Shown one piece after another: positions 8,301 through 18,776 of a stretch of 18,842 bases of DNA. Source of the DNA: an uncultured Flavobacteriia bacterium (GTDB taxonomy: Bacteria > Bacteroidota > Bacteroidia > Flavobacteriales > Flavobacteriaceae); NCBI GenBank assembly GCA_946482495.1, contig CAMLRV010000018.1:1-18842 (forward strand). The letters run 5' to 3'. The number at the start of each line of letters is the position of its first letter. The first letter of the stretch is position 1. Position numbers and translations under genes: made by a program. A model generated the notes under the pieces. That model did no database searches. It was not told the DNA's origin and saw only the letters and a program-made list of their open reading frames with translations.

Positions 8301-8771
8301 ATGAAGATAAATCACTTACAAATAGAGATTGACGGTATAGACAAAGAAATTCTTCGTAACCTTATGGAAGATGCCAGAAAACCTATTCTTCAAATTGCTA
8401 ATAAATTAGGTATTTCAGGAGCTGCCATTCACCAACGTTTGAAGAAGCTAGAACAAGCTGGTGTGATTTCAGGTTCTAAATATGTGGTGAATAATAAAGT
8501 GTTAGGCTATAAAACTATGGCGTTTATTGGTATTTATTTAGACAAAGCTTCTAGTAATACGGAAACTGTTAAAGAGCTAAAAAAAATCCCAGAAGTATTA
8601 GAATGTCACTATACCACTGGGAATTGGAGTATTTTAACCAAAATTATTTGTAGAGACAACGAACACTTAATGCAATTATTGAATGATAAAATTCAAAGCA
8701 TTAAAGGTGTTTCACGTACGGAAACATATATTTCTTTAGAACAACAAATTGAAAGACAAATTCAATTGTAA
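8301..8771 (+). CDS. Lrp/AsnC family transcriptional regulator
   Basis: A 156-residue regulator. An N-terminal winged helix-turn-helix spans about residues 10-60 (DGIDKEILRNLMEDARKP, then IANKLGISGAAIHQRLKKLE as recognition helix and VISGSKYVVN as wing). A C-terminal ligand-binding RAM domain follows, with the LECHYTTGNWSILTKIIC core near 97-114. Family members form octamers and sense amino acids. The family name is secure; the effector is not. Its position directly behind a saccharopine-dehydrogenase-like gene suggests lysine or a lysine-pathway intermediate as the signal, with that gene as a target (inference). A terminator hairpin separates the two genes. Confidence 0.93.
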   Translation: MKINHLQIEIDGIDKEILRNLMEDARKPILQIANKLGISGAAIHQRLKKLEQAGVISGSKYVVNNKVLGYKTMAFIGIYLDKASSNTETVKELKKIPEVLECHYTTGNWSILTKIICRDNEHLMQLLNDKIQSIKGVSRTETYISLEQQIERQIQL

Positions 8772-8775
8772 GTGT

Positions 8776-8798
8776 GATTTACGATTTTTGATTTACGA
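8776..8798 (+). repeat. Short direct repeat GATTTACGA x2
   Basis: Two identical 9-base copies (8776-8784 and 8790-8798) are separated by TTTTT in the 47-base gap between the Lrp gene and a small membrane protein gene. This could be a slippage-type duplication or a regulator site; neither is shown. Confidence 0.5.
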
Positions 8799-8818
8799 AA
8801 TTAAAAACAATAATTCTG

Positions 8819-9082
8819 ATGAAAAGAAACTTGATAAGAGTAGTAATTTTTTACATATTATATGTTCTAACATGTGTTTTTACTGAGATGTTATCGCCAA
8901 GTGTTCATGGTCCTGGATTAAGTTTTTTCATGTTTCTATTTTTTGGATGTATTTCTATTTTAATGTTACTATTCGATTTAGGTAAGCTCATTAATGGAAG
9001 TAAAGAATACAAGTTAAATACTTTTGTGCATTTAACTTTTTACGGCTTAATTGTATTTTTAATTTATTATTTAAAAGCTTAA
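8819..9082 (+). CDS. Small three-helix membrane protein, unknown function
   Basis: An 87-residue protein with hydrophobic segments near residues 6-23, 34-53 and 67-85, a short outside loop (EMLSPSVHGPGLS) and positively charged ends. I do not recognise a family. The composition and charge pattern are those of a real inner-membrane protein. It starts 47 bases after the Lrp gene with no terminator between, so the two may be co-transcribed. Its stop codon overlaps that of the convergent response regulator within the palindrome TTAA (9079-9082). Confidence 0.7.
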   Translation: MKRNLIRVVIFYILYVLTCVFTEMLSPSVHGPGLSFFMFLFFGCISILMLLFDLGKLINGSKEYKLNTFVHLTFYGLIVFLIYYLKA

Positions 9083-9720
9083 ATGCAAACAATTTTGTTT
9101 TTAATAGCATATAAAACCAAACCAATTCTGGTTTTTAGTTCTAGTTTTTGAAATAAATTTTCTCGGTAACCGTCTATTGTTTTTGGACTTAAGCACATAC
9201 CATCTGCAATTTCTTTATATGTTTTTTCGGTACAAGCTAATCGGATAAATTCTACTTCTCTATCTTTTAAAACGATTTTGTTTTCGTTTTGGTTTAATTT
9301 GTTTATTAAAAATCCAGAAACAATTTCGGTATAGTAAAACCCTTTGTTATGTACTTCTAATAAAGCTTCTTTAAATGTTTTCGGATCGGTATCTTTCAAT
9401 AAATAGCCTTTGGCACCATTCGTAATCATTTTCATGATGGTGTCTTCATCATCGTTTACGGACAAGGCTAAAACTTTTAAATCTGAATGATTTTCTTTAA
9501 TCCATTTCATCGTTTCAATTCCATCCATAATTGGCATATTAACATCTAATAGCACAATGTTTGGAATTTCGATATTTTCTGTTTCAAATGCGGTGATAAA
9601 TTCTTTACCATTGGGGTAACTTCCAATCACTTCGAATTCTTTGTATTTACTTATTAAAAAAGAGAGTGATTGAGAGAATAATAAATGATCATCTACAATT
9701 ATTATTTTAATTTTTTCCAT
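9079..9720 (-). CDS. NarL/LuxR-type response regulator
   Basis: A 213-residue two-component output protein. The receiver domain (residues 3-120) has the acidic pair Asp10-Asp11, phospho-acceptor Asp59 in VLLDVNMPIMDG, the switch Ser87 and Lys109 in GYLLKDTD. A LuxR-type helix-turn-helix follows at about 148-213 (LKDREVEFIRLACTEKTYKE, then SPKTIDGYRENLFQKL). All key receiver residues are intact. It starts 6 bases behind the histidine kinase gene, its obvious partner. The DNA target is unknown. Autoregulation and control of the neighbouring protease cluster are both possible but not shown. Confidence 0.95.
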   Translation of the reverse strand: MEKIKIIIVDDHLLFSQSLSFLISKYKEFEVIGSYPNGKEFITAFETENIEIPNIVLLDVNMPIMDGIETMKWIKENHSDLKVLALSVNDDEDTIMKMITNGAKGYLLKDTDPKTFKEALLEVHNKGFYYTEIVSGFLINKLNQNENKIVLKDREVEFIRLACTEKTYKEIADGMCLSPKTIDGYRENLFQKLELKTRIGLVLYAIKNKIVCI

Positions 9721-9726
9721 GATTTT

Positions 9727-10512
9727 TTATATATTTTTCTCTTCTTTTATCGGATAATCTATCATTAAAATTGTTCCATTATTGTTGGAATAAATAGTTA
9801 AACTTGCACCAATTAAATCGGCTCTAGTATAAATATTGGATAAACCTGAGCCTTTTTTACTTTTTTCTACGTTGAAGCCTTTTCCGGTATCAATGATGTC
9901 AATTTTACAATTCTTTTCGGTAAACAAAATATTTATTGTTATAGAATCACTGTGTGAATGTCTTAATATATTTGATATAGATTCCTGTAAAATTCTATAA
10001 ATAATAGTTTGATGTTCCGAGTTTATTTTTTTTAGTTCTCCATTAATATGTACTTCACATTTAATTTTTTTAAGGGCTTTTATTCTATCTAAATCTTCTG
10101 AAATTGCAGTAATGAAATTGGTGTTTAGAAAAAGATCACCATTCATTATTTTAGATAATACACGAATTTCATTTAAAGATTTTGTAACTAATTCTTTTAT
10201 TTCTTTAAGTTCTGAAATTGAATATTTGTCGTTGTCTTCAATAATGATATTCATCTGCATGAGTGCTACTGAAAGAATTTGTCCGACATTATCATGTAAT
10301 TCCCGACTTACATTTGTTAAAGTTTGTTCTTTAATTTCAATTTTCGACTTAGTTAATTCAGATTGAAAAAGTAATTCTGCTTCTAACTTATCCGTTAAAA
10401 ATTTTGTTTTCTTCTTCTGAAAAAAAAAGAACAAAATAAATACAGTCAGTAATAGTGTAAATAATACTATACTAAAGGAAATTACTAATAATTGTATTTC
10501 TTCTCGCTGCAT
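9727..10512 (-). CDS. Sensor histidine kinase (HisKA_3 type)
   Basis: A 261-residue kinase with one transmembrane helix (about residues 7-31), a charged coiled-coil-like linker, the H-box VSRELHDNVGQ (phospho-His73) and a HATPase domain with N-box QESISNILRH, G1 box DTGKGF and G2 box GSGLSNIYTRA. There is almost no extracytoplasmic domain, so sensing probably comes from the neighbouring membrane protein or the membrane itself. I start it at the ATG at 10512. A TTG at 10533 would add seven residues but is a weaker start. The reading frame overlaps the end of the upstream membrane-protein gene by 28 bases, suggesting translational coupling. Confidence 0.93.
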   Translation of the reverse strand: MQREEIQLLVISFSIVLFTLLLTVFILFFFFQKKKTKFLTDKLEAELLFQSELTKSKIEIKEQTLTNVSRELHDNVGQILSVALMQMNIIIEDNDKYSISELKEIKELVTKSLNEIRVLSKIMNGDLFLNTNFITAISEDLDRIKALKKIKCEVHINGELKKINSEHQTIIYRILQESISNILRHSHSDSITINILFTEKNCKIDIIDTGKGFNVEKSKKGSGLSNIYTRADLIGASLTIYSNNNGTILMIDYPIKEEKNI

Positions 10513-11132
10513 ATAAAACCTATTAAAAAACAACTGTGCATTAACAAATTTAATATAAATAAAACAAATCTAAAGATGGTCATATTCGTATCAATCAAGA
10601 AAAAATGATTGGCCAACATGTAGGGTAAAAAAGGAACATGAAAAGCTAAAATGCCGAGTACAAACCAAAAATAGATTGATTTTTTAAAGTTTAGAATGTT
10701 TTCTGAGCTAAATATTTCTAATAAATACAAGCACGATAAAAACAAAATTATTATTACACCTATTGCAAAAACACTCGTTAAAGTACTACTAAGATTGTTT
10801 TCAATAAACAATAAATTTACAAAATACGTACTAATGAAAAGCAGTAAGAATATTAATGCAATTTTCTTATTCTTTATCTTAATTAGCAATAATTTTAATA
10901 AAATGATATAATATGAAAAACTAATTAAGATGTAAAAATTGTAAATTGGATAATTGATACAGCCTGTCCATTCTGTAAAATTTAAACCAATATAATCTAT
11001 AATAAAAGCTATCCAAATGAAAGCTAATAGAGATTTAGCTTTATTATTTGGAAGTTTGAAATAGAAAAATATTCCTGGAATTCCTGATAATAAAGCTAAA
11101 TAAATAGTATAAGAGTTTAAATTTTGTAACAT
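10485..11132 (-). CDS. Seven-helix membrane protein, unknown function
   Basis: A 215-residue protein with about seven hydrophobic helices (near residues 8-26, 34-50, 62-84, 90-110, 117-141, 150-173 and 183-207) and no large soluble domain. I recognise no named family. It sits between a 144-residue soluble protein and a histidine kinase that lacks its own sensor domain, starting 3 bases after the former and overlapping the latter. An input or sensor subunit for the kinase is the most economical role, but this is inference from context only. The gene is very AT-rich, mostly because of its Phe, Leu, Ile and Tyr content. Confidence 0.8.
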   Translation of the reverse strand: MLQNLNSYTIYLALLSGIPGIFFYFKLPNNKAKSLLAFIWIAFIIDYIGLNFTEWTGCINYPIYNFYILISFSYYIILLKLLLIKIKNKKIALIFLLLFISTYFVNLLFIENNLSSTLTSVFAIGVIIILFLSCLYLLEIFSSENILNFKKSIYFWFVLGILAFHVPFLPYMLANHFFLIDTNMTIFRFVLFILNLLMHSCFLIGFICSEKKYNY

Positions 11133-11135
11133 ATT

Positions 11136-11570
11136 TTATTGTGGATACGTTATTTTTGGAGGATTACCAATCCCACCATAATTTAGGGGTTCAATTTCTG
11201 TAACATCTACATTTACTTCTACAGATGTATTCGCGTCTAAACTTTTTTCTAAATTACCAGAAATTTTCTTTTTTGTTGGCGACAGAAATATAGTTGTTAA
11301 ACCCGCTTTTTCTTTATATTTCAAACCATCTTCTGGATACACTCCGATATAAAATCTAATTCCGTTTATTTCAATTCCTTTTTCAATTCCCTTAGTTTTT
11401 ATATAATTAATGTAATTCTCTAATTCTTCAATAGAATACCAAACTGCATTTGTATCTTCTTTACCAATATTCGATAAAATTAAACCTGATCTTTTTTCAT
11501 TATATCTTTTGTTTAAATCAAGTGCCAATTCACTCGTTATTAATTGAGTTGGTTCATCAAATTGTTTCAT
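11136..11570 (-). CDS. Conserved-looking soluble protein of unknown function, first gene of the signalling operon
   Basis: A 144-residue protein with no signal peptide or membrane helix. It has a helical N-terminal half (TSELALDLNKRYNEKRSG, then VWYSIEELENYINYIKTKG), a beta-like segment GIRFYIGVYPED, and an ending NYGGIGNPPKITYP. I cannot assign a family. It probably folds as one alpha/beta domain. An in-frame ATG at 11615 exists, but the promoter box (11595-11602) lies inside that extension, so the ATG at 11570 is the likely start. Only 3 bases separate its stop from the seven-helix protein gene, so it belongs to the kinase/regulator operon and may modulate that pathway. Confidence 0.78.
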   Translation of the reverse strand: MKQFDEPTQLITSELALDLNKRYNEKRSGLILSNIGKEDTNAVWYSIEELENYINYIKTKGIEKGIEINGIRFYIGVYPEDGLKYKEKAGLTTIFLSPTKKKISGNLEKSLDANTSVEVNVDVTEIEPLNYGGIGNPPKITYPQ

Positions 11571-11594
11571 TTTTTTAGTTTTTAGTTTATAATA

Positions 11595-11626
11595 CAAATT
11601 TAATTTTTTAGTCATTTTCTGAACAA
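11595..11626 (-). promoter_or_regulatory. Promoter of the leftward signalling operon
   Basis: The minus strand carries TTG (11624-11626), a 21-base spacer and TAAATTTG (11595-11602), a good Bacteroidota promoter. It predicts a leader of roughly 20 bases before the ATG at 11570 and decides that start. Confidence 0.65.
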
Positions 11627-11907: not shown

Positions 11908-12750
11908 ATGGCTAAGAAAGCTTTAGTAGTGGGCATCAACGATTATGCTCCTATAGGGGTTGGAGGACCCGATTTAAACGGATGTGTGAATGACGCACGA
12001 GACATGGCAAACACTTTAGTAATATGTGGTTTCCCAGCTTTAAGCGTAAGAATTTTAACGAATCAGAACGCAACAAAAGCAAATATCGTTTCTAATTTAA
12101 CCAACTTAGTAACTACGAGTAAAAAAGGCGATTCTATTGTGTTTTACTATTCAGGTCATGGTACAAGAGTAGCGAATATCGGAAGTGATTTTGAAGTAGA
12201 TGGTTTAGATGATGCTATTTGTCCACACGATTTTGCCTCAGCAGGTGTAATGCGTGATGATGAATTCGCGGCCATACTAAGTCAACTTCCTGCCGGAGTC
12301 AATATGGATGTGATTTTTGATTGCTGCCATTCAGGAACTGGAACTAGAAAAATGAGTTTGGTGGATTTAGACGGAAATCCAACAAATGAAGCAGCCAGAT
12401 TTATTGAGCCAAATTTAGAAGATGAGTTTTACTTCAATCACTCTAAAGAATTAGTTGAGGTTAAAAAAACTAGTAAAAAAGGAACCAAACAACTTACTGC
12501 AACTTCTATGAATCATTCACTTTTTGCAGCTTGTAAAGATAGTCAAGTGGCCATGGAAGGAAATATGGGCGGAGTAACTCGTGGTTATTTCACATATAAT
12601 TTATGTAAAATCTTAAGAGCCACAAATGGTAACATTAAGAGAAACGCTTTAGATTCTCAAATATCAAATGCTTTATCTGCAATGGGTGCGGCTCAAATCA
12701 ATCAAACAGAAGGGAAAAGAACCGAATTAAATCAAAATATCTTTTTATAA
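11908..12750 (+). CDS. Metacaspase-like cysteine protease (peptidase C14, caspase fold)
   Basis: A 280-residue protein that opens with KALVVGINDYAP and LNGCVNDARDM, a typical bacterial metacaspase start. The catalytic dyad is visible: His84 in YYSGHGTR and Cys140 in FDCCHSG. A p10-like part follows a basic linker (residues about 180-196, rich in Lys) and contains LFAACKDSQVAMEG and RGYFTYNLCKIL. Metacaspases cut after Arg or Lys, unlike animal caspases. There is no signal peptide, so it should act in the cytosol. It is the first gene of the cluster, 20 bases ahead of a serine protease gene, and could be the activating protease. Both catalytic residues are intact. Confidence 0.93.
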   Translation: MAKKALVVGINDYAPIGVGGPDLNGCVNDARDMANTLVICGFPALSVRILTNQNATKANIVSNLTNLVTTSKKGDSIVFYYSGHGTRVANIGSDFEVDGLDDAICPHDFASAGVMRDDEFAAILSQLPAGVNMDVIFDCCHSGTGTRKMSLVDLDGNPTNEAARFIEPNLEDEFYFNHSKELVEVKKTSKKGTKQLTATSMNHSLFAACKDSQVAMEGNMGGVTRGYFTYNLCKILRATNGNIKRNALDSQISNALSAMGAAQINQTEGKRTELNQNIFL

Positions 12751-12770
12751 CTAAATAAACAATTAAAATC

Positions 12771-13697
12771 ATGGAAACAACAAATCCAATTCTTTGCGAA
12801 GAATTAAAAAAAGCAAAAGGCGTAAAAGCAAAAAAAGCAGCTTCAAACTTGGAAGAAATTGAAGCAATAGGGATTAAAAGTTTAGAAGGAACTAAAAAAG
12901 CTATCGAAAAAACAGAAGGTTTTACACCTGAGAATTTAGATGTAGAGTTTATTCCTAAGGCAGTAAAAAACACCAAGTTCATTGACAGAGAAACGTTCAT
13001 GCAAGAAAAAGGAAGCAAAACTATTTTTGGCCCAGATCAAAGAACTGTATACAATTCAATGACTTATCCTTGGAATTGCGTTGGAAGAGTTCAAACAGAA
13101 CTTGGAATTGCAAGTGGTGTAATGATTGGACCTCGTCACGTATTAACTTGTGCACACGTTATCAAATTTTTAGCAAACGGAACTACGGGATGGGTGAAGT
13201 TCTCGCCAATGTACTACAATGGTCCAAATGCTACTTATGGAACCGCAAATAGTATCAAAACTTTCTACAAATACAAAGTAAGTGGGCCAACTATCGATGC
13301 AACTGAATCAAAATTTGATTATGTAGTGGTGGTTTTAGATAGAAACTTAGGGAATACTACAGGTTGGATGGGAGCAACAGCATATACTGACTCTTGGGAC
13401 GGTGGCGCTTACTGGACACACGCTGGTTATCCGGTTGATTTAACAGCAGGAGAAAGACCAACTTATCAAACAAATATTGCCTTAAATGGAGATGATGCAA
13501 CTTCAGATAAAGCACAAGCACTTTACCATACTGGAGATGTATGGCCAGGTCAAAGTGGTGGACCATTTTGGGGATACTGGGGAACCACTCCAAATGTAGT
13601 AGGAGTACAAAGCTGGCAAAATAGTTCTACGAACGCTGCAAGTGGAGGATCTGACTTGGTTGATTTAGTAAATCAAGCTAGAACACAATATCCTTAA
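12771..13697 (+). CDS. Trypsin-fold serine protease with pro-region (V8/glutamyl endopeptidase-like)
   Basis: A 308-residue protein. Residues 1-83 form a charged, Lys/Glu-rich helical pro-region with no signal peptide. The protease domain runs from about 84 to the end, with the S1 triad His129 (LTCAHV), Asp183 (KFDYVVVVLD) and Ser262 (PGQSGGPFW). The domain start TIFGPDQRTVYNSMTYPW resembles the mature N-terminus of Bacillus glutamyl endopeptidases (IGSDDR...TxxYP). A late His (THAGYP, His217) sits where such enzymes often have a pocket residue. Lys83 directly precedes the mature start and would suit cutting by a basic-specific metacaspase. It lies between the caspase gene and the helical-module genes. 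Confidence 0.92.
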   Translation: METTNPILCEELKKAKGVKAKKAASNLEEIEAIGIKSLEGTKKAIEKTEGFTPENLDVEFIPKAVKNTKFIDRETFMQEKGSKTIFGPDQRTVYNSMTYPWNCVGRVQTELGIASGVMIGPRHVLTCAHVIKFLANGTTGWVKFSPMYYNGPNATYGTANSIKTFYKYKVSGPTIDATESKFDYVVVVLDRNLGNTTGWMGATAYTDSWDGGAYWTHAGYPVDLTAGERPTYQTNIALNGDDATSDKAQALYHTGDVWPGQSGGPFWGYWGTTPNVVGVQSWQNSSTNAASGGSDLVDLVNQARTQYP

Positions 13698-13707
13698 AAT
13701 TTAGAAA

Positions 13708-14067
13708 ATGGAAACTGAAAAAACTATCGAGGAAATTTTTGAAGATGTTTCAGATGTAAATCAACTTCAATATCTGAAGGATAAACTTGGTCAAGCCAAA
13801 AAAGATAAAAATGGAGAAATCCAAGTATTTCCATCGCCAAAATTTTCAAAATATTTAGAACTGAAACAAAAATATAATGAATTGTCTTCCCATCTAAATA
13901 CTGTTAAAAGTAATGTTGAAAATGGAGATGTAAATGCTATGACAGAGATCAATTTTTCAGGAGCTACACATATGAAAAAAATCGAAAATGCTCTTAAACT
14001 ATGGACTAGTATAGGGTATAAAAATGAAGTTGAAAAAATTATTTCGCTAAGCGAAAAAATAAATTAA
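13708..14067 (+). CDS. Small helical protein sharing a module with the next gene
   Basis: A 119-residue, highly charged, helical protein starting 10 bases after the serine protease gene. Residues 39-112 align without gaps to residues 189-262 of the 516-residue protein encoded next, with 29 of 74 identities by hand count, including FPSP, KYLE, ALK-x-W and IGYK-x(3)-EK. Everything else of the larger protein is missing, so this is a stand-alone copy of that module. It has no signal peptide, no enzyme motif and no membrane helix. It may bind or hold back the larger relatives, but nothing shows that directly. An expressed gene is more likely than a remnant, because the frame is intact and has its own A-rich start. 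Confidence 0.82.
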   Translation: METEKTIEEIFEDVSDVNQLQYLKDKLGQAKKDKNGEIQVFPSPKFSKYLELKQKYNELSSHLNTVKSNVENGDVNAMTEINFSGATHMKKIENALKLWTSIGYKNEVEKIISLSEKIN

Positions 14068-14122
14068 TAGGTGCAGTCCGAAAAGCCTTTAAAAGAGTAG
14101 GAGTAACTAAAAATTTAATATT

Positions 14123-15673
14123 ATGCCAGATTTTACACCAATGCCTGATGAAAAAGACTTTTTAAACTATTTATTAGGCGATGTTTTTAAAAAAATGACT
14201 AATGGAGGAGACGCCAAAATGTTAGGGCCAAACAACTTTATTGCTTGGGAACCAGTTCCTGTAGTCATGGATCCAGAAGCATTTGATTATGCTTTAAAAG
14301 GTTTTTTTGGAGCTACTCCAAAATTAGAAAATATGTCAGATGAAGAGTATGAAGATGCTAGAAGTTCTAAAAAATATAGCAAGTATGCTTATTCAGAAGA
14401 ATTTGCCAGAATAGCAGATCAAATTCCGAGTATGATTCCAGAAATTGACCCTGCTACAGGAGCTAGAAAATTTACCATTTTTAGTCCACATCCTGACCAT
14501 ACAAAATCAAATGTTTATAGTGATGTTTTGGATTATTGCGTTGTTAAAAATTCAAAAATCGATCCTAAAGTGGAAAAGAAATTAGAGACTTTAAGAAAAC
14601 AAATCGTTACTATTAAAAAATTAGCAAACCCTGATTTTGATGATACGGTTGTAGAACATCCAGAAGATAATCCGAAATTTATCTATCAATCTTTCCCTTC
14701 TCCACAATACGTGAAGTATTTAGAGTATGAAGCGTTATATTATGAACAAGAAGATAAATTAACAGATTTACAAAAAAGAGTAGCTGACGGTGAAGCTGAT
14801 GCGATGTCGGAAATGGCTATCAATGGTAGAAACTACATCAAAAGAAGAGATGATGCTTTAAAACGTTGGGAAGGTATCGGTTATAAAGGGAAAATTGAAA
14901 AAGCTTTAAATTATATTGATGAAATTGAAAGTAGTAATTTCATTACGATTAAAAAGCGTTATGAGTCGGAACTTTTAGCAGCAAAAAGAACTGGTTTAGG
15001 TGGTATGAATACTTATTACTTCTCTCAACCTGTACCAGCAAGTACTTTAGCTAATTCAACAAAATGGTTAGAGTATAAATTTAGTAAAAGTGAATTCGAT
15101 TCAAATTACAAAAGCACAACACACAGCTGGAGTGCAGCAGCAAGTTTTGCAGGAATGGTTAATGTAGGCGGAACTGGAAAACATAAAAGAATCGATTCTA
15201 CTTATAACTTCAATGAATTTGAAATGTCCTTTAAAATTGGAAAATGTTATGTGTCAAGTCCATGGTTTGGTAGTACGTTCCTTAAATCTCGTTATTGGAA
15301 ATACTCAAAAAATGGAGCTGAAATTTTAAACAACCAAATGATTAGCGATGGTAATGGTAAAGGTTTATTACCTGCTGTTACAACAGAATTATATTTTATT
15401 TCTGATTTAAAAATTGGTTTTAAAAAGAATTCTACTTCATACAAAAGAGCTGAAGATGAAGTTAACGCAGGAGCACATTTAGCAATTGGTCCTTTCATGT
15501 TTGGAGGTACTTATGGGTATCAAGATACTCGTGTAAATAGTACGGGTAAAAAAGAAGAACAAGGATTGTCTTCTGGAGGAATTTTACTTTTAGGAAGAAA
15601 ATGTAACATTCTTGATTTATCGCCAAACCCACTTCCATCAATTAAAGATGACGAATGGGTAGAGGTTAACTAA
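14123..15673 (+). CDS. Uncharacterised protein with helical module and Ser/Gly-rich beta region
   Basis: A 516-residue protein of a layout I know only as uncharacterised. It has an N-terminal part rich in Phe and Pro (1-130), a helical region (145-270) ending in ALKRWEGIGYKGKIEKAL, then a predicted beta-rich C-terminal half. That half has a Ser/Thr/Ala/Gly stretch (328-360, SWSAAASFAGMVNVGG), PWF-x(4)-LKSRYW (380-392), LLPAVTTELYFISDLKI (415-431), AIGPFMFGGTYGY (454-466) and a hydrophobic strand before GRKC (491-494) and a Pro-rich tail. There is no signal peptide. The small-residue, alternating pattern is like that of membrane-inserting hairpins, so a membrane-active role is plausible but unproven. 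A strong terminator follows. Confidence 0.88.
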   Translation: MPDFTPMPDEKDFLNYLLGDVFKKMTNGGDAKMLGPNNFIAWEPVPVVMDPEAFDYALKGFFGATPKLENMSDEEYEDARSSKKYSKYAYSEEFARIADQIPSMIPEIDPATGARKFTIFSPHPDHTKSNVYSDVLDYCVVKNSKIDPKVEKKLETLRKQIVTIKKLANPDFDDTVVEHPEDNPKFIYQSFPSPQYVKYLEYEALYYEQEDKLTDLQKRVADGEADAMSEMAINGRNYIKRRDDALKRWEGIGYKGKIEKALNYIDEIESSNFITIKKRYESELLAAKRTGLGGMNTYYFSQPVPASTLANSTKWLEYKFSKSEFDSNYKSTTHSWSAAASFAGMVNVGGTGKHKRIDSTYNFNEFEMSFKIGKCYVSSPWFGSTFLKSRYWKYSKNGAEILNNQMISDGNGKGLLPAVTTELYFISDLKIGFKKNSTSYKRAEDEVNAGAHLAIGPFMFGGTYGYQDTRVNSTGKKEEQGLSSGGILLLGRKCNILDLSPNPLPSIKDDEWVEVN

Positions 15674-15682
15674 TCCACTAAT

Positions 15683-15719
15683 AAAAATCCAAATGCCTGA
15701 AAAGGTGTTTGGATTTTTT
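15683..15719 (+). terminator. Strong intrinsic terminator inside the cluster
   Basis: Arms 15683-15698 and 15703-15718 pair over 16 positions (two G-U wobbles) around a GAAA tetraloop and end in six T. It lies 10 bases after the 516-residue protein's stop and 15 bases before the next ATG, with no promoter visible after it. Downstream genes should therefore depend on read-through or on a promoter inside the preceding gene. Confidence 0.85.
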
Positions 15720-15734
15720 AAACTAATAGAAATC

Positions 15735-17507
15735 ATGAAATACTATATATCATTATTCCAGAAAATTAAAGAGTATTATAAAACGCAAAGTACAAATGAT
15801 GCGGAAATTCCTCTAATTTGTCCTTCATTACGCGTGTATAATAATGAGGAAATGAAACTGTTATTGCCTCAAATGCTGATTGATGAAAATCAAAAAGGAG
15901 AAGCTTTTCTAAAAAAACAAGATATTTCTTTTCAATTGAATTCGATTCCTTCTTCTGATAAATATTGGGATGTTAACCCAAGCAATACTTTGTTTAATGC
16001 TTATGGTAAAATCATTGAAGCCAAACAAGTAGAAGCAGAGCAAATCAAAGAAACACAACACCTTGATGCGAATAAAATTTTATACGACGATAAAGGTAAA
16101 CCAACAAAAGAAAAAAAAGCCTACGATAAGTATTTGCCCTTGTTTGATAAATTAATCACAGAATGGGAAGAACACGTAGCCAAATATAATAGCCTAACAA
16201 CGGATGATGAAAAAAATGTTTGGTTGGCAAAATTGAACAATATTTTATTGCGAAAAGAAAAACTTATTGTAGACCATAAGCTTCTTGGCTATAAAGAACT
16301 CATTGAAAACGCCATGAGCAAAATAAATGCACTTGACGGATTAGATATTTTCTTAGCGAATTTGATGAACTCAAGAAACATCATGGAAAATACTGCAAAA
16401 ACAGGTTTGCAATCGTTAGAGTCGTATCATGATATCAATTTTATTCCATACGATTTCATGTCAAACAAAAACGGTTGGACAAAATTGTCTATCGATAAAA
16501 AAGAATTAGATGAATTGTATGAAAGAGCTAAAGTGGAAAAAGATGATTTTCCTAAGGAAATTATTTCTATAGATTATGATGAGAAAAATATAATTGGTGT
16601 GGAATTAGAATTCTCCATTGTTACTTTACAAAGAAGTTGGTTTTCTAAGTCGACATTAGTTTCTAATTTTTTCAAATGGACCGAAGCAAAATCCATTTCG
16701 GATGGGGAAACTATCAGTAACGATTTTCTTCTGCCTGCGTTTCCGCTAAAAATGTTCTTGATTCAAAATCTTAAAATTAATATCGATCCGACGGTTTCAG
16801 CTTCAGTAGTGAGCGACATCAACCAACTGATACATTTCGGACCAATTATCATGAAAAATCAGCTTTTTGTAAATTCAACAAATAATATCAGTTTTATAAA
16901 AGCAGTCAGAAATAAAGAAACGTTGACTTCTACAAATGTCAAATATTATAGTGATAAAGCTGAAATTAGTAAAGTTGAAACACGAACTGTAGAAACGCCA
17001 CCAATTGTAAGCGCACCAAGAATGGCTTCAGCCCGAGTAATGGCTGCCAGACCAATTGTTATGGATCCAAAACCTATAATTACACCAAAGCCTGTGGTTT
17101 CAACAGCTATTTTGTCTTCAACCATTTTGGTGAATCCAGTTTTGTTTCAGCCAGCAATTGTGACTACTATTATTCCTGCGAATCAAACTACAATTGTGGT
17201 GAACATTAAGGATTCAATTACTAAACAAGCGGTTTATAAGTCAGAAATCTCTATAATCGGAATTAACAATGCTTTCTTCAAAGAAATCGAATCGAATAAA
17301 GAAGGTTCCACCGAAATAAAACTTCCAATTGGAAATTATAAATTGACTATCATCAAAGATGGTTATCGCGTTTTTGAAGAGGAATTGAAAGTAGAAAATC
17401 AAAATACCATTTCGAAAGAATATAGCCTACTACCTGAATCGGTGAATTACGATAGTTTTTTTCTCATCGGAATGGTTTGCGAAAAACTACCTAAAATTCC
17501 GAACTAG
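15735..17507 (+). CDS. Second, larger family member with Pro-rich linker and regulatory-like beta domain
   Basis: A 590-residue protein. The helical part (about 85-200) ends in LLGYKELIENAMSKIN, matching the module in the two preceding genes. The middle aligns with the 516-residue protein: WTKLSIDKKELDELY (248-262) with WLEYKFSKSEFDSNY, SWFSKSTLVSNFFKW (301-315), and LLPAFPLKMFLIQNLKI (332-348). Next come a Pro/Val/Ala-rich linker (421-480), a carboxypeptidase-regulatory-like (PEGA-like) beta domain (about 484-565: ITKQAVYKSEISI, LPIGNYKLTIIKDGY) and the end FLIGMVCEKLPKIPN. The Ser/Gly-rich stretch of its relative is replaced by charged residues. I start at ATG 15735, since an upstream ATG at 15693 lies inside the terminator hairpin. 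No signal peptide is visible. Function is unknown. Confidence 0.87.
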   Translation: MKYYISLFQKIKEYYKTQSTNDAEIPLICPSLRVYNNEEMKLLLPQMLIDENQKGEAFLKKQDISFQLNSIPSSDKYWDVNPSNTLFNAYGKIIEAKQVEAEQIKETQHLDANKILYDDKGKPTKEKKAYDKYLPLFDKLITEWEEHVAKYNSLTTDDEKNVWLAKLNNILLRKEKLIVDHKLLGYKELIENAMSKINALDGLDIFLANLMNSRNIMENTAKTGLQSLESYHDINFIPYDFMSNKNGWTKLSIDKKELDELYERAKVEKDDFPKEIISIDYDEKNIIGVELEFSIVTLQRSWFSKSTLVSNFFKWTEAKSISDGETISNDFLLPAFPLKMFLIQNLKINIDPTVSASVVSDINQLIHFGPIIMKNQLFVNSTNNISFIKAVRNKETLTSTNVKYYSDKAEISKVETRTVETPPIVSAPRMASARVMAARPIVMDPKPIITPKPVVSTAILSSTILVNPVLFQPAIVTTIIPANQTTIVVNIKDSITKQAVYKSEISIIGINNAFFKEIESNKEGSTEIKLPIGNYKLTIIKDGYRVFEEELKVENQNTISKEYSLLPESVNYDSFFLIGMVCEKLPKIPN

Positions 17508-17530
17508 TTTATAACTAAAAATCACTCGTC

Positions 17531-18355
17531 ATGAAAACAATAAAATACAATAATAAAACTTCCGAAGTCGTGACGCTTTGCGAAATGCTTAATAATTTAG
17601 GCTACAATTTAATGGTTTCAGATTCGTTCACTCTTGCTGTTGATGCAGCAGTTAAAGATTTTCAATCTAAACATAATTTGGTTGTTGATGGAATTGTAGG
17701 AACTAAAAGTTGGTCGAAATTATATGAATTGAATTTACAATTTACTAATCATAACGACAAATTTTTATCAGAACAAGATTTAATCCACTTTTCTAATATT
17801 TTCGAATTAGAATTGGCTACTGTAAAAGCGGTTAATGAAGTAGAAAGCAGTGGTAAAGGTTTTTTATTGAGCGGAAAACCCAAGATTTTGTTCGAAGGTC
17901 ATGTTTTTTGGAGAGAATTAGAAAGAAGAAGTGTCAATCCGAACAATTATTGGAATAATAATACTGCTGATGTATTGTACAAAAGTTGGACAAAAAAGTA
18001 TTATGTAGGCGGAGAAGGTGAATATTTACGTTTACAGAAAGCGATGCAAATTGGCTCAGGACAAGATTTTGTAGACGCTGCAAATGCTTCCGCTTCTTGG
18101 GGATGTTTTCAAATTATGGGTTTTCATGCACTACCATTAGGATATACTAGTATTGACGATTTTGTACAAAAAATGCAGTTGAACGAAGGTGAACATCTGA
18201 AAGCTTTTGGTCAGTTTTTAAAAATCAATCATTTAATTTCTTATCTACAAAATAAAGAATGGGATGAATTTGCCAGACGTTATAATGGCGCTTCTTATAA
18301 AGTGAATAAATACGATATAAAATTGGCTCACGCTTACGCGAAATATTCTAATTAA
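17531..18355 (+). CDS. N-acetylmuramidase (DUF3380/PF11860 type) with peptidoglycan-binding domain
   Basis: A 274-residue two-domain wall hydrolase. Residues 1-68 form a PG_binding_1 domain (VVTLCEMLNNLGYN, then AAVKDFQSKHNLVVDGIVGTKSW). Residues about 80-274 are an N-acetylmuramidase domain: ATVKAVNEVESSGKGFL (catalytic Glu probably Glu105), KPKILFEGHVFWRELERR, and SWGCFQIMGFHALPLGY with the closing RRYNG. This resembles phage modular endolysins, which cut the glycan backbone of peptidoglycan. There is no signal peptide, so the enzyme needs a membrane breach or a dedicated export route to reach its substrate. No phage structural gene or holin lies in the window. It sits 23 bases behind the 590-residue protein gene. 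Confidence 0.93.
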   Translation: MKTIKYNNKTSEVVTLCEMLNNLGYNLMVSDSFTLAVDAAVKDFQSKHNLVVDGIVGTKSWSKLYELNLQFTNHNDKFLSEQDLIHFSNIFELELATVKAVNEVESSGKGFLLSGKPKILFEGHVFWRELERRSVNPNNYWNNNTADVLYKSWTKKYYVGGEGEYLRLQKAMQIGSGQDFVDAANASASWGCFQIMGFHALPLGYTSIDDFVQKMQLNEGEHLKAFGQFLKINHLISYLQNKEWDEFARRYNGASYKVNKYDIKLAHAYAKYSN

Positions 18356-18370
18356 TTTAAATTTTGAAAT
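18354..18370 (+). repeat. 17-base leader repeat, second copy
   Basis: AATTTAAATTTTGAAAT here is identical to 11890-11906. Each copy ends one base before an ATG, that of the caspase gene and that of the last gene of the cluster. The first ten bases are a palindrome. The repeat probably acts in translation initiation. Confidence 0.6.
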
Positions 18371-18371
18371 C

Positions 18372-18746
18372 ATGGAAAATCGTGTACTGGAAATGATTGA
18401 CATTTTGTCTAACAAAAAACTCATTAGAGAAAAAGTTAATAGCGACAGAGATTACTCTGGTGGTGGTTGGTTTGATGAAAAAAAGGAAACACTTTTTTTG
18501 TGTTCTGATAAAAGTTTTGCTTTTGTGATTGAATCTTTTTCAAGTGTTTCTTCAGGTGGATTTTCGTTACCCTCGCAAAGTAGGAATGAGTATTTCGGAA
18601 CTTGGAATATTATTGAAGAAGATTTTACCTTGTTTTTGATGTTGAGGTATCAAGATGGCTCATTAGAAAAAATACAAACCAGAAGTTTAGGTCGAGGTTT
18701 ACAAGAGTTAAATTACATCACATGGAACAGATATTTGATGGAATAA
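18372..18746 (+). CDS. Small beta-rich protein of unknown function, last gene of the cluster
   Basis: A 124-residue protein without signal peptide or membrane helix. After a short N-terminal helix (ENRVLEMIDILSNKKL) it is dominated by alternating strand patterns: ETLFLCSDKSFAFVIES, a Ser/Gly-rich turn (SSVSSGGFSLPSQS), FGTWNI, FTLFLMLRYQDGSLEKI and a final NYITWNRYLM. The FGTW motif after a Ser-rich segment, followed by paired strands, suggests a small lipocalin-like or other beta barrel, but I cannot name a family. It starts 16 bases behind the muramidase gene and shares a 17-base leader with the caspase gene. It could be an accessory or immunity-type protein; no direct evidence. Confidence 0.8.
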   Translation: MENRVLEMIDILSNKKLIREKVNSDRDYSGGGWFDEKKETLFLCSDKSFAFVIESFSSVSSGGFSLPSQSRNEYFGTWNIIEEDFTLFLMLRYQDGSLEKIQTRSLGRGLQELNYITWNRYLME

Positions 18747-18776
18747 AAAAGAGCGTCGAAATTGACGCTCTTTTTT
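18745..18776. terminator. Bidirectional terminator closing the cluster
   Basis: AAAAAAGAGCGTC (18745-18757), a six-base loop, then the exact complement (18764-18776) ending in six T. It begins inside the stop codon of the last cluster gene. The A tract on one side and T tract on the other would also let it stop transcription arriving from the right. Confidence 0.88.

Follow-up and report, generated by a model that had tools for sequence, protein, structure and literature searches.

Operons for bacterial gasdermins (bGSDMs) encode caspase- and trypsin-type proteases beside the pore-former, and sometimes amidase or lysozyme genes, according to the part of the published account drawn on here (PMC9612521). 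The predicted NucA-trypsin and EACC1 conflict systems are described, in the cited part of Kaur et al. 2020 (PMC7159879), as activated by trypsin- and caspase-type proteases, and their effectors there include lysozyme domains and papain-like wall peptidase domains. In the current analysis we describe a cassette of seven genes in an 18,842-nucleotide stretch (contig CAMLRV010000018.1, referred to as the window) from an uncultured Flavobacteriia bacterium. It encodes a metacaspase, a trypsin-like protease, a pair of paralogous proteins of an unnamed family (A1, of 516 residues, and A2, of 590 residues, together referred to as the core), a peptidoglycan hydrolase and two small proteins.

The cassette resembles the bGSDM operons in combining caspase- and trypsin-type proteases with a candidate pore-former and, as some of those operons do, with a wall hydrolase. 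It differs from them in that the candidate has roughly double the length of the bGSDM chains matched in structure searches, comes as a pair and is adjoined by a two-component system. The nuclease and STAND components described for the NucA-trypsin/EACC1 systems in the cited source are not seen among the genes here, and the match of the caspase to the EACC1 caspase model (NCBIfam NF047832) is below cut-off, at 47.8 bits against 140. As in phage holin-endolysin systems there is an endolysin-like muramidase without a signal peptide (phrog_1224, E 4.3e-83), which would need an opening of the membrane; in contrast to those systems no small transmembrane holin is encoded, no membrane segment being found in the seven proteins by hydropathy, and soluble paired proteins are present instead.

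A firm genomic rule emerges from the analysis, namely that a paralogous and apparently cytosolic pair of an unnamed family is fixed to an interchangeable wall hydrolase. We tentatively read the locus, at somewhat less than an even chance, as a kit for regulated self-lysis with a putative membrane activity.

Pairing of the core with wall hydrolases

When genomes representing species were scanned with A1, 44 loci were obtained, in Flavobacterium, Algibacter, Chryseobacterium, Kaistella, Petrimonas/Proteiniphilum and other metagenome-assembled genomes (MAGs), which together with the window and eight fetched loci (L061-L068) make up a set of 53. Two members of the family lie side by side in 51 of the 53, the exceptions being L041, at a contig end, and L044, where the core is broken. 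The two members in L008 are separated by a transposase gene on the opposite strand. A peptidoglycan hydrolase is encoded within 4 kb of the core in 48 of the loci (absent in L008, L041, L062, L063 and L068). Of the 501 open reading frames (ORFs) other than the core that lie within 4 kb, 51 match such hydrolases, against none of the 456 at greater distance, a count that unlike hydrolases farther out would escape because the query hydrolases were taken from beside the pair.

The class of the hydrolase varies. In the window it is a muramidase (PG_binding_1, E 3.2e-11; Muramidase PF11860, E 3e-62; both over cut-off), in L005 a protein with Amidase_2 and SH3 domains, and in L007, L061, L065, L066 and L067 an upstream protein with CHAP and PG_binding domains; these assignments come from Pfam for the window, L005 and L067 and from phmmer similarity for the remaining loci. 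Three of the 51 hydrolase ORFs are second, CHAP-like genes behind the muramidase (L009, L010, L040), and the one in L009, the only one of the three scanned with Pfam, has a sub-threshold NLPC_P60 match only.

A simple hydropathy test, which was positive for kinases, membrane proteins and two lipoprotein controls, found no signal peptide or membrane segment in the seven window proteins, nor in the scored homologues of A1, A2, the caspase, the trypsin, the hydrolase and the 124-residue protein. The remark in the original prediction that none of the seven carries a visible signal peptide is borne out by this test. Hydrolases lacking a signal peptide would need an opened inner membrane in order to act on the wall of their own cell. 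Self-lysis appears to explain such hydrolases best, and it resembles the bGSDM operons that carry amidase or lysozyme genes. The earlier suggestion of a membrane-active pair with a muramidase finishing lysis fits as far as the hydrolase beside the pair is concerned, although no gasdermin is found by sequence.

The changing hydrolase can also be viewed as the cargo of a weapon, the pair being a carrier or pore that is released by secretion or lysis and delivers wall hydrolases, and proteases, into competitors. Wall hydrolases are typical antibacterial payloads, and both the hydrolase and the protease slots vary as cargo would. The 124-residue gene is the last one, after the muramidase, in the window, L001-L004 and L064, and the small gene of unknown family at this place in six loci could be an immunity gene. 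The Chryseobacterium and Kaistella loci, however, show the pair and the hydrolase only, with no small partner gene, and signal peptides are lacking by hydropathy. The core has no general link to phage-type contractile sheaths: the sheath family PF04984 is found in 8 of 21 chosen core-bearing genomes at E 1e-3 and over cut-off in 2 of 21, type VI sheath genes not having been searched. We consider delivery into competitors rather unlikely.

Sequence and predicted structure of the pair

A1 and A2 are related over 354 columns in a profile-profile comparison (E 1.4e-14). The 119-residue protein matches A1 at about 54 bits and A1 matches the 604-residue frame of A2 at about 24 bits, and the module that the original prediction saw in three of the proteins is therefore real. 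The longer frame of A2 (15693-17507) begins at the first ATG; the conserved start is its Met15, which gives the 590 residues first proposed. The module of the 119-residue type is also present as a single small gene in L001, L005 and L064. The extra PEGA/transthyretin-like domain of A2 spans residues about 494-582 of the 604-residue frame and, apart from this carboxypeptidase-regulatory/PEGA domain, 28 A1 and 42 A2 family members have weak Pfam matches only. The 119-, 516-, 604/590- and 124-residue proteins match no Pfam or NCBIfam family over cut-off and no PADLOC model at E 0.01.

The beta domain of A1 contains two Gly-rich, low-charge, hairpin-like stretches at about 327-360 and 448-486. The C-terminal part of the A1 model (mean predicted local distance difference test score, pLDDT, 69.7; predicted template modelling score 0.67) runs through a strand at 316-321, the low-confidence stretch 327-360 and a strand at 366-378, and continues with a strand at 418-433, a helix with a low-confidence hairpin to 486 and a strand at 487-496. 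The pore domains of MACPF/CDC proteins and gasdermins are known for a plan with two insertions between strand pairs. In the distant relatives compared, a Gly-rich motif is common to both insertions, as exemplified by GGGFSLGFFSIGG and GGGAIGIGPFMVGG.

A Foldseek search of the PDB with the A1 model places bGSDM chains at ranks 1, 2 and 5 (E 0.038, 0.18 and 0.31). The structure check proposed earlier thus returns bacterial gasdermins at the top, yet the matches are not significant, and a gasdermin-like fold of A1 is hinted at by the model and not established. The core proteins differ from gasdermins in having no match to them in Pfam, PADLOC or PDB sequence searches, and the earlier statement that no gasdermin is recognisable holds at this level. 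Most bGSDMs have a Cys near the N-terminus for lipidation; the first 100 residues of A1 are devoid of Cys and the first Cys of the 590-residue form of A2 is residue 29.

The core is found in 6 of 395 genomes sampled from the phylum, 5 of 299 from the family and, with a divergent alignment (A3), 7 of 326 from the phylum, each count including the centre genome, known beforehand to be positive. A profile search with A3 (E 1e-4) gave 250 proteins. Precomputed Pfam domains are absent from all 120 that were listed, and the named sources include Ktedonobacter, Spirosoma, Chitinophaga, Cellulophaga, Acetobacteraceae MAGs and Nitrosomonas MAGs. P0227, a distant relative of A1, has relatives on 2 of 72,556 plasmids, one of Neorhizobium and one of Acuticoccus. 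On the former the relative is followed by a second protein with the same motifs, recognised by eye (profiles gave no match), and on the latter the relative lies beside an OmpA-family gene. No match to A1 was found in viral contigs and none to P0227 in phage records, and these searches give no sign of a phage origin for the core.

P0060, a protein of 390 residues on a 4.9-kb contig, has a piece of the A1 module joined to a subtilase and is probably an assembly chimera. In three loci the A1-A2 pair is followed by a gene for a YLATT membrane protein (YEATS-Like-Associating Three TM, PF20303; L007:13427-14143, L008:4609-5301 and L067:4038-4691); a search on YLATT and pYEATS found no relevant paper in the literature collection consulted.

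Proteases, regulator and layout of the locus

The metacaspase matches PF00656 at 105.9 bits (cut-off 21.4; Peptidase_C14, E 3.4e-30), its catalytic His and Cys are invariant in 5 of 5 aligned sequences, in agreement with a p20 fold bearing a His-Cys dyad, and it shares sequence similarity over the catalytic domain with the metacaspases 7qp0, 6w8s and GSU0716 (3bij). Acidic residues that presumably line the S1 pocket, as in other metacaspases, look conserved in the alignment. The second protease is matched by Trypsin_2 (E 1.6e-6) and Trypsin (E 2.9e-6), its catalytic triad is invariant in 9 of 9 aligned sequences, and its best PDB match is the glutamyl endopeptidase 1p3c (E 4.1e-8), again over the catalytic domain. 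Two proteases of different classes together with a peptidoglycan hydrolase, as originally proposed, are confirmed by these over-cut-off Pfam matches. In contrast to the matched enzymes, the two proteases here are both predicted to be cytosolic and are encoded as a pair.

The alignment with mature 1p3c begins at residue 85 of the trypsin-like protein, and a propeptide therefore probably makes up the first 83 or 84 residues. All 8 of the aligned homologues that are linked to a caspase have Lys or Arg as residue 83. Neither stands there in L086, where no caspase match occurs in the fetched 19.5 kb. Since the eight homologues come from two genera and Thr84-Gly87 is equally conserved in them, the pattern is only suggestive of an activation site at Lys/Arg83 in the caspase-linked copies.

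In the window, L001, L002, L004 and L064 the core has the caspase and trypsin-like genes upstream of it. In L003 the protease slot (8676-9943) holds adjacent genes for a papain-family peptidase (Peptidase_C1) and a chagasin-type inhibitor, without a signal peptide by hydropathy, which are possibly a cytosolic protease-inhibitor pair. A protease of either kind adjoins the core in 6 of the 53 loci and is absent beside it in the other 47.

Divergent from the cassette, 292 bases from the caspase gene, lies a group of sensor, kinase and response regulator genes. The original prediction had missed these genes, which link the core and the protease halves. The same four regulator genes are found in Chryseobacterium, where the order is a lipoprotein like the 159-residue protein, a membrane protein, a histidine kinase, a response regulator, the caspase and the trypsin-like protease, and this run is present, away from the core, in all 11 protease-bearing loci inspected (L083-L085, L088-L095), a subset of 54 genomes with strong protease matches. 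The core itself has the regulator genes as neighbours in the window, L003, L004, L005, L006 and L065, and in L005, L006 and L065 no protease gene is nearby. Adjacency of regulator and core, of regulator and protease, and of protease and core is each seen in several loci.

The metacaspase/V8-like pair, linked to a two-component system, is joined to the core in some Flavobacterium. In a sample of 148 Chryseobacterium genomes the core is found in 35, the protease in 54 (57 with three weak matches) and both in 16, an association that is not significant (16/35 against 38/113, Fisher p 0.23), and an obligate trigger role of the proteases is therefore excluded. The protease pair can be separated from the core as a module of its own, and the two occur apart in many species. 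The expected conservation of gene order holds in that the families keep their order, but not as a significant association of protease with core in Chryseobacterium; the proposed coupling of caspase- and trypsin-type proteases to a latent pore-former is seen as adjacency in some genomes, though as a separable module.

The 159-residue protein of the window lacks the lipoprotein-like signal of its homologues in L004, L065 and Chryseobacterium, a stretch between KKMK and QFDEP being missing in the alignment. In other regulator modules the sensor part expands: the membrane protein is present as a tandem triplicate in L099 and L100, and the 159-residue family occurs in two copies in L097, L100 and L102.

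The seven genes of the cassette lie on the plus strand between 11908 and 18746, separated in gene order by 20, 10, 55, 61 (to 15735), 23 and 16 bases (Table 1). Folding of 51 bases at its end gives -17.9 kcal/mol (z -6.1), with 0 of 200 shuffles equally good, which marks a strong terminator that a pattern scan had missed. The ORF list and the fold agree with the earlier description of closely spaced, same-strand genes ended by a terminator.

Table 1. Features of the locus. Coordinates are those of the forward strand of the window; proteins start at the first start codon in frame unless stated.
Feature	Position	Strand	Remarks
Response regulator, Response_reg + LuxR-type GerE	9079..9720	-	homologue upstream of caspase-trypsin in 11/11 Chryseobacterium loci inspected
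Histidine kinase, HisKA_3 + HATPase_c	9727..10533	-	
Polytopic membrane protein of regulator module	10485..11132	-	no Pfam match at E 0.01
159-residue protein of regulator module	11136..11615	-	
Metacaspase/orthocaspase-type protease, 280 residues	11908-12750	+	Peptidase_C14 family; His84 and Cys140
Glutamyl-endopeptidase-like (S1B) predicted zymogen, 308 residues	12771-13697	+	His129, Asp183, Ser262
Lys83 codon	13017..13019	+	basic residue directly before the probable mature N-terminus (TIFGxDxR)
119-residue lone copy of the helical module of A1	13708-14067	+	
Core protein A1, 516 residues	14123-15673	+	helical module and C-terminal beta domain
Core protein A2, 590 residues	15735..17507	+	paralogue of A1 with extra PEGA/transthyretin-like domain
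PG_binding_1 + N-acetylmuramidase, endolysin-like, 274 residues	17531-18355	+	
124-residue protein	18372-18746	+	no family over cut-off
Intrinsic terminator	18745..18776	+	perfect stem

The company of proteases and a wall hydrolase brings to mind anti-phage abortive infection, in which the sensing of an infection would lead the proteases to switch on the pair, so that lysis comes before phages are assembled. The caspase matches the PADLOC caspase model (E 2.7e-25), and proteases of the caspase and trypsin types, as well as lysozyme or papain-like wall peptidases, are found in predicted conflict systems, in the parts of the accounts cited (PMC7159879, PMC8195603). The caspase falls well short of the EACC1 model, however, its linked regulator belongs to the common two-component type, and no nucleoside triphosphatase sensor is seen among the seven cassette and four regulator genes. 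The core has the same genes upstream in all 32 Chryseobacterium and Kaistella loci. Defence-island location, for which the original prediction had proposed a check, gave no signal in a scan of 94 ORFs flanking nine of the loci: none of the 25 PADLOC families shown (of 77 matched, mostly helicase models, with no control set) matched more than two members. An anti-phage role is accordingly considered quite improbable.

Proposed regulated self-lysis and possible envelope remodelling

In the self-lysis that we favour, a membrane sensor module made up of the lipoprotein-like protein, the polytopic protein, the histidine kinase and the response regulator would switch on two groups of genes. The metacaspase, expected to cleave after Lys or Arg, would mature the V8-like zymogen at the conserved Lys/Arg before its predicted mature N-terminus. 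The A1 and A2 paralogues may use the shared helical module and the beta domain to assemble at the inner membrane, either on it or within it, and open it, and the proteases, as a lineage-specific trigger, would release or modify the pair, for example in the disordered linker of A2 that contains Pro and Arg. The endolysin-like muramidase could then gain access to the wall and the cell would burst, the 119-residue lone module tuning or blocking assembly.

A number of observations weigh against such a role. The A1 model is a middling one with its lowest pLDDT in the hairpins, a beta-moment scan does not single these hairpins out, and the best gasdermin match has a probability of 0.38, a TM-score of 0.13 and a root-mean-square deviation of 14.7. 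The count of hydrolases near the pair used queries from beside the pair, and the proteases show no significant association with the core in Chryseobacterium. The 159-residue family is present in 182 of 299 genomes of the family and is thus common without the cassette, and no cassette gene is seen near the regulator genes in ten further loci (L096-L105, one of them truncated at a contig end). Chryseobacterium and Kaistella account for 32 of the 53 loci, all at one chromosomal site, and in all of them the core stands behind the same upstream genes, as a household function would. An L,D-transpeptidase-like protein is encoded near the pair of L067; such proteins build the wall rather than break it.

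A neighbouring gene family (cluster c2) adjoins the core in these 32 loci and in L001, and a gene resembling it holds the equivalent place in L064; we take it to be tonB. In L044 (Kaistella palustris) the core is split into several frames and the muramidase frame is of full length. The L,D-transpeptidase-like protein of L067 (4703-6097, minus strand) has hemopexin repeats joined to a YkuD_2 domain and lies near a distant A1-A2 pair.

Several of these points would suit a remodelling of the envelope, in stress, dormancy or development, in which the pair and the hydrolase work non-lethally on the cell's own envelope and the proteases are a general stress-proteolysis unit sharing the regulator by chance. 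It would be consistent with this that core and protease occur independently in Chryseobacterium, that the two-component module is common and that distant loci have neighbours of the L,D-transpeptidase-like and OmpA-family kinds. Hydrolases without export signals by hydropathy would, however, be unusual among wall remodelling enzymes, and their class varies freely. Remodelling is on balance an unlikely account, though one deserving consideration.

A bolder form of the self-lysis reading can be put forward, which we hold to be doubtful. The tandem proteins of the 516/590 type may constitute a new superfamily of cytosolic, paired, hetero-oligomeric beta-pore formers, acting as a protein-based holin that frees signal-less wall hydrolases in several phyla (Bacteroidota, Chloroflexota and Pseudomonadota). 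In Flavobacterium and Chryseobacterium they would be wired to a two-component-controlled cascade from metacaspase to V8 zymogen, and bacteria would thus have their own equivalent of a caspase cascade that acts on a pore.

If the self-lysis reading is true, an unnamed and widespread protein family would join the short list of bacterial lysis effectors. The metacaspase and the zymogen with its conserved candidate activation site would form a small regulated protease cascade, the order of which is directly testable, and which would bear on the substrates of bacterial metacaspases and on whether bacteria have proteolytic cell death in settings other than phage defence. Should the lysis reading fail, there would still be a genomic rule to explain, that of two paralogues in fixed company with a wall hydrolase of changing class.

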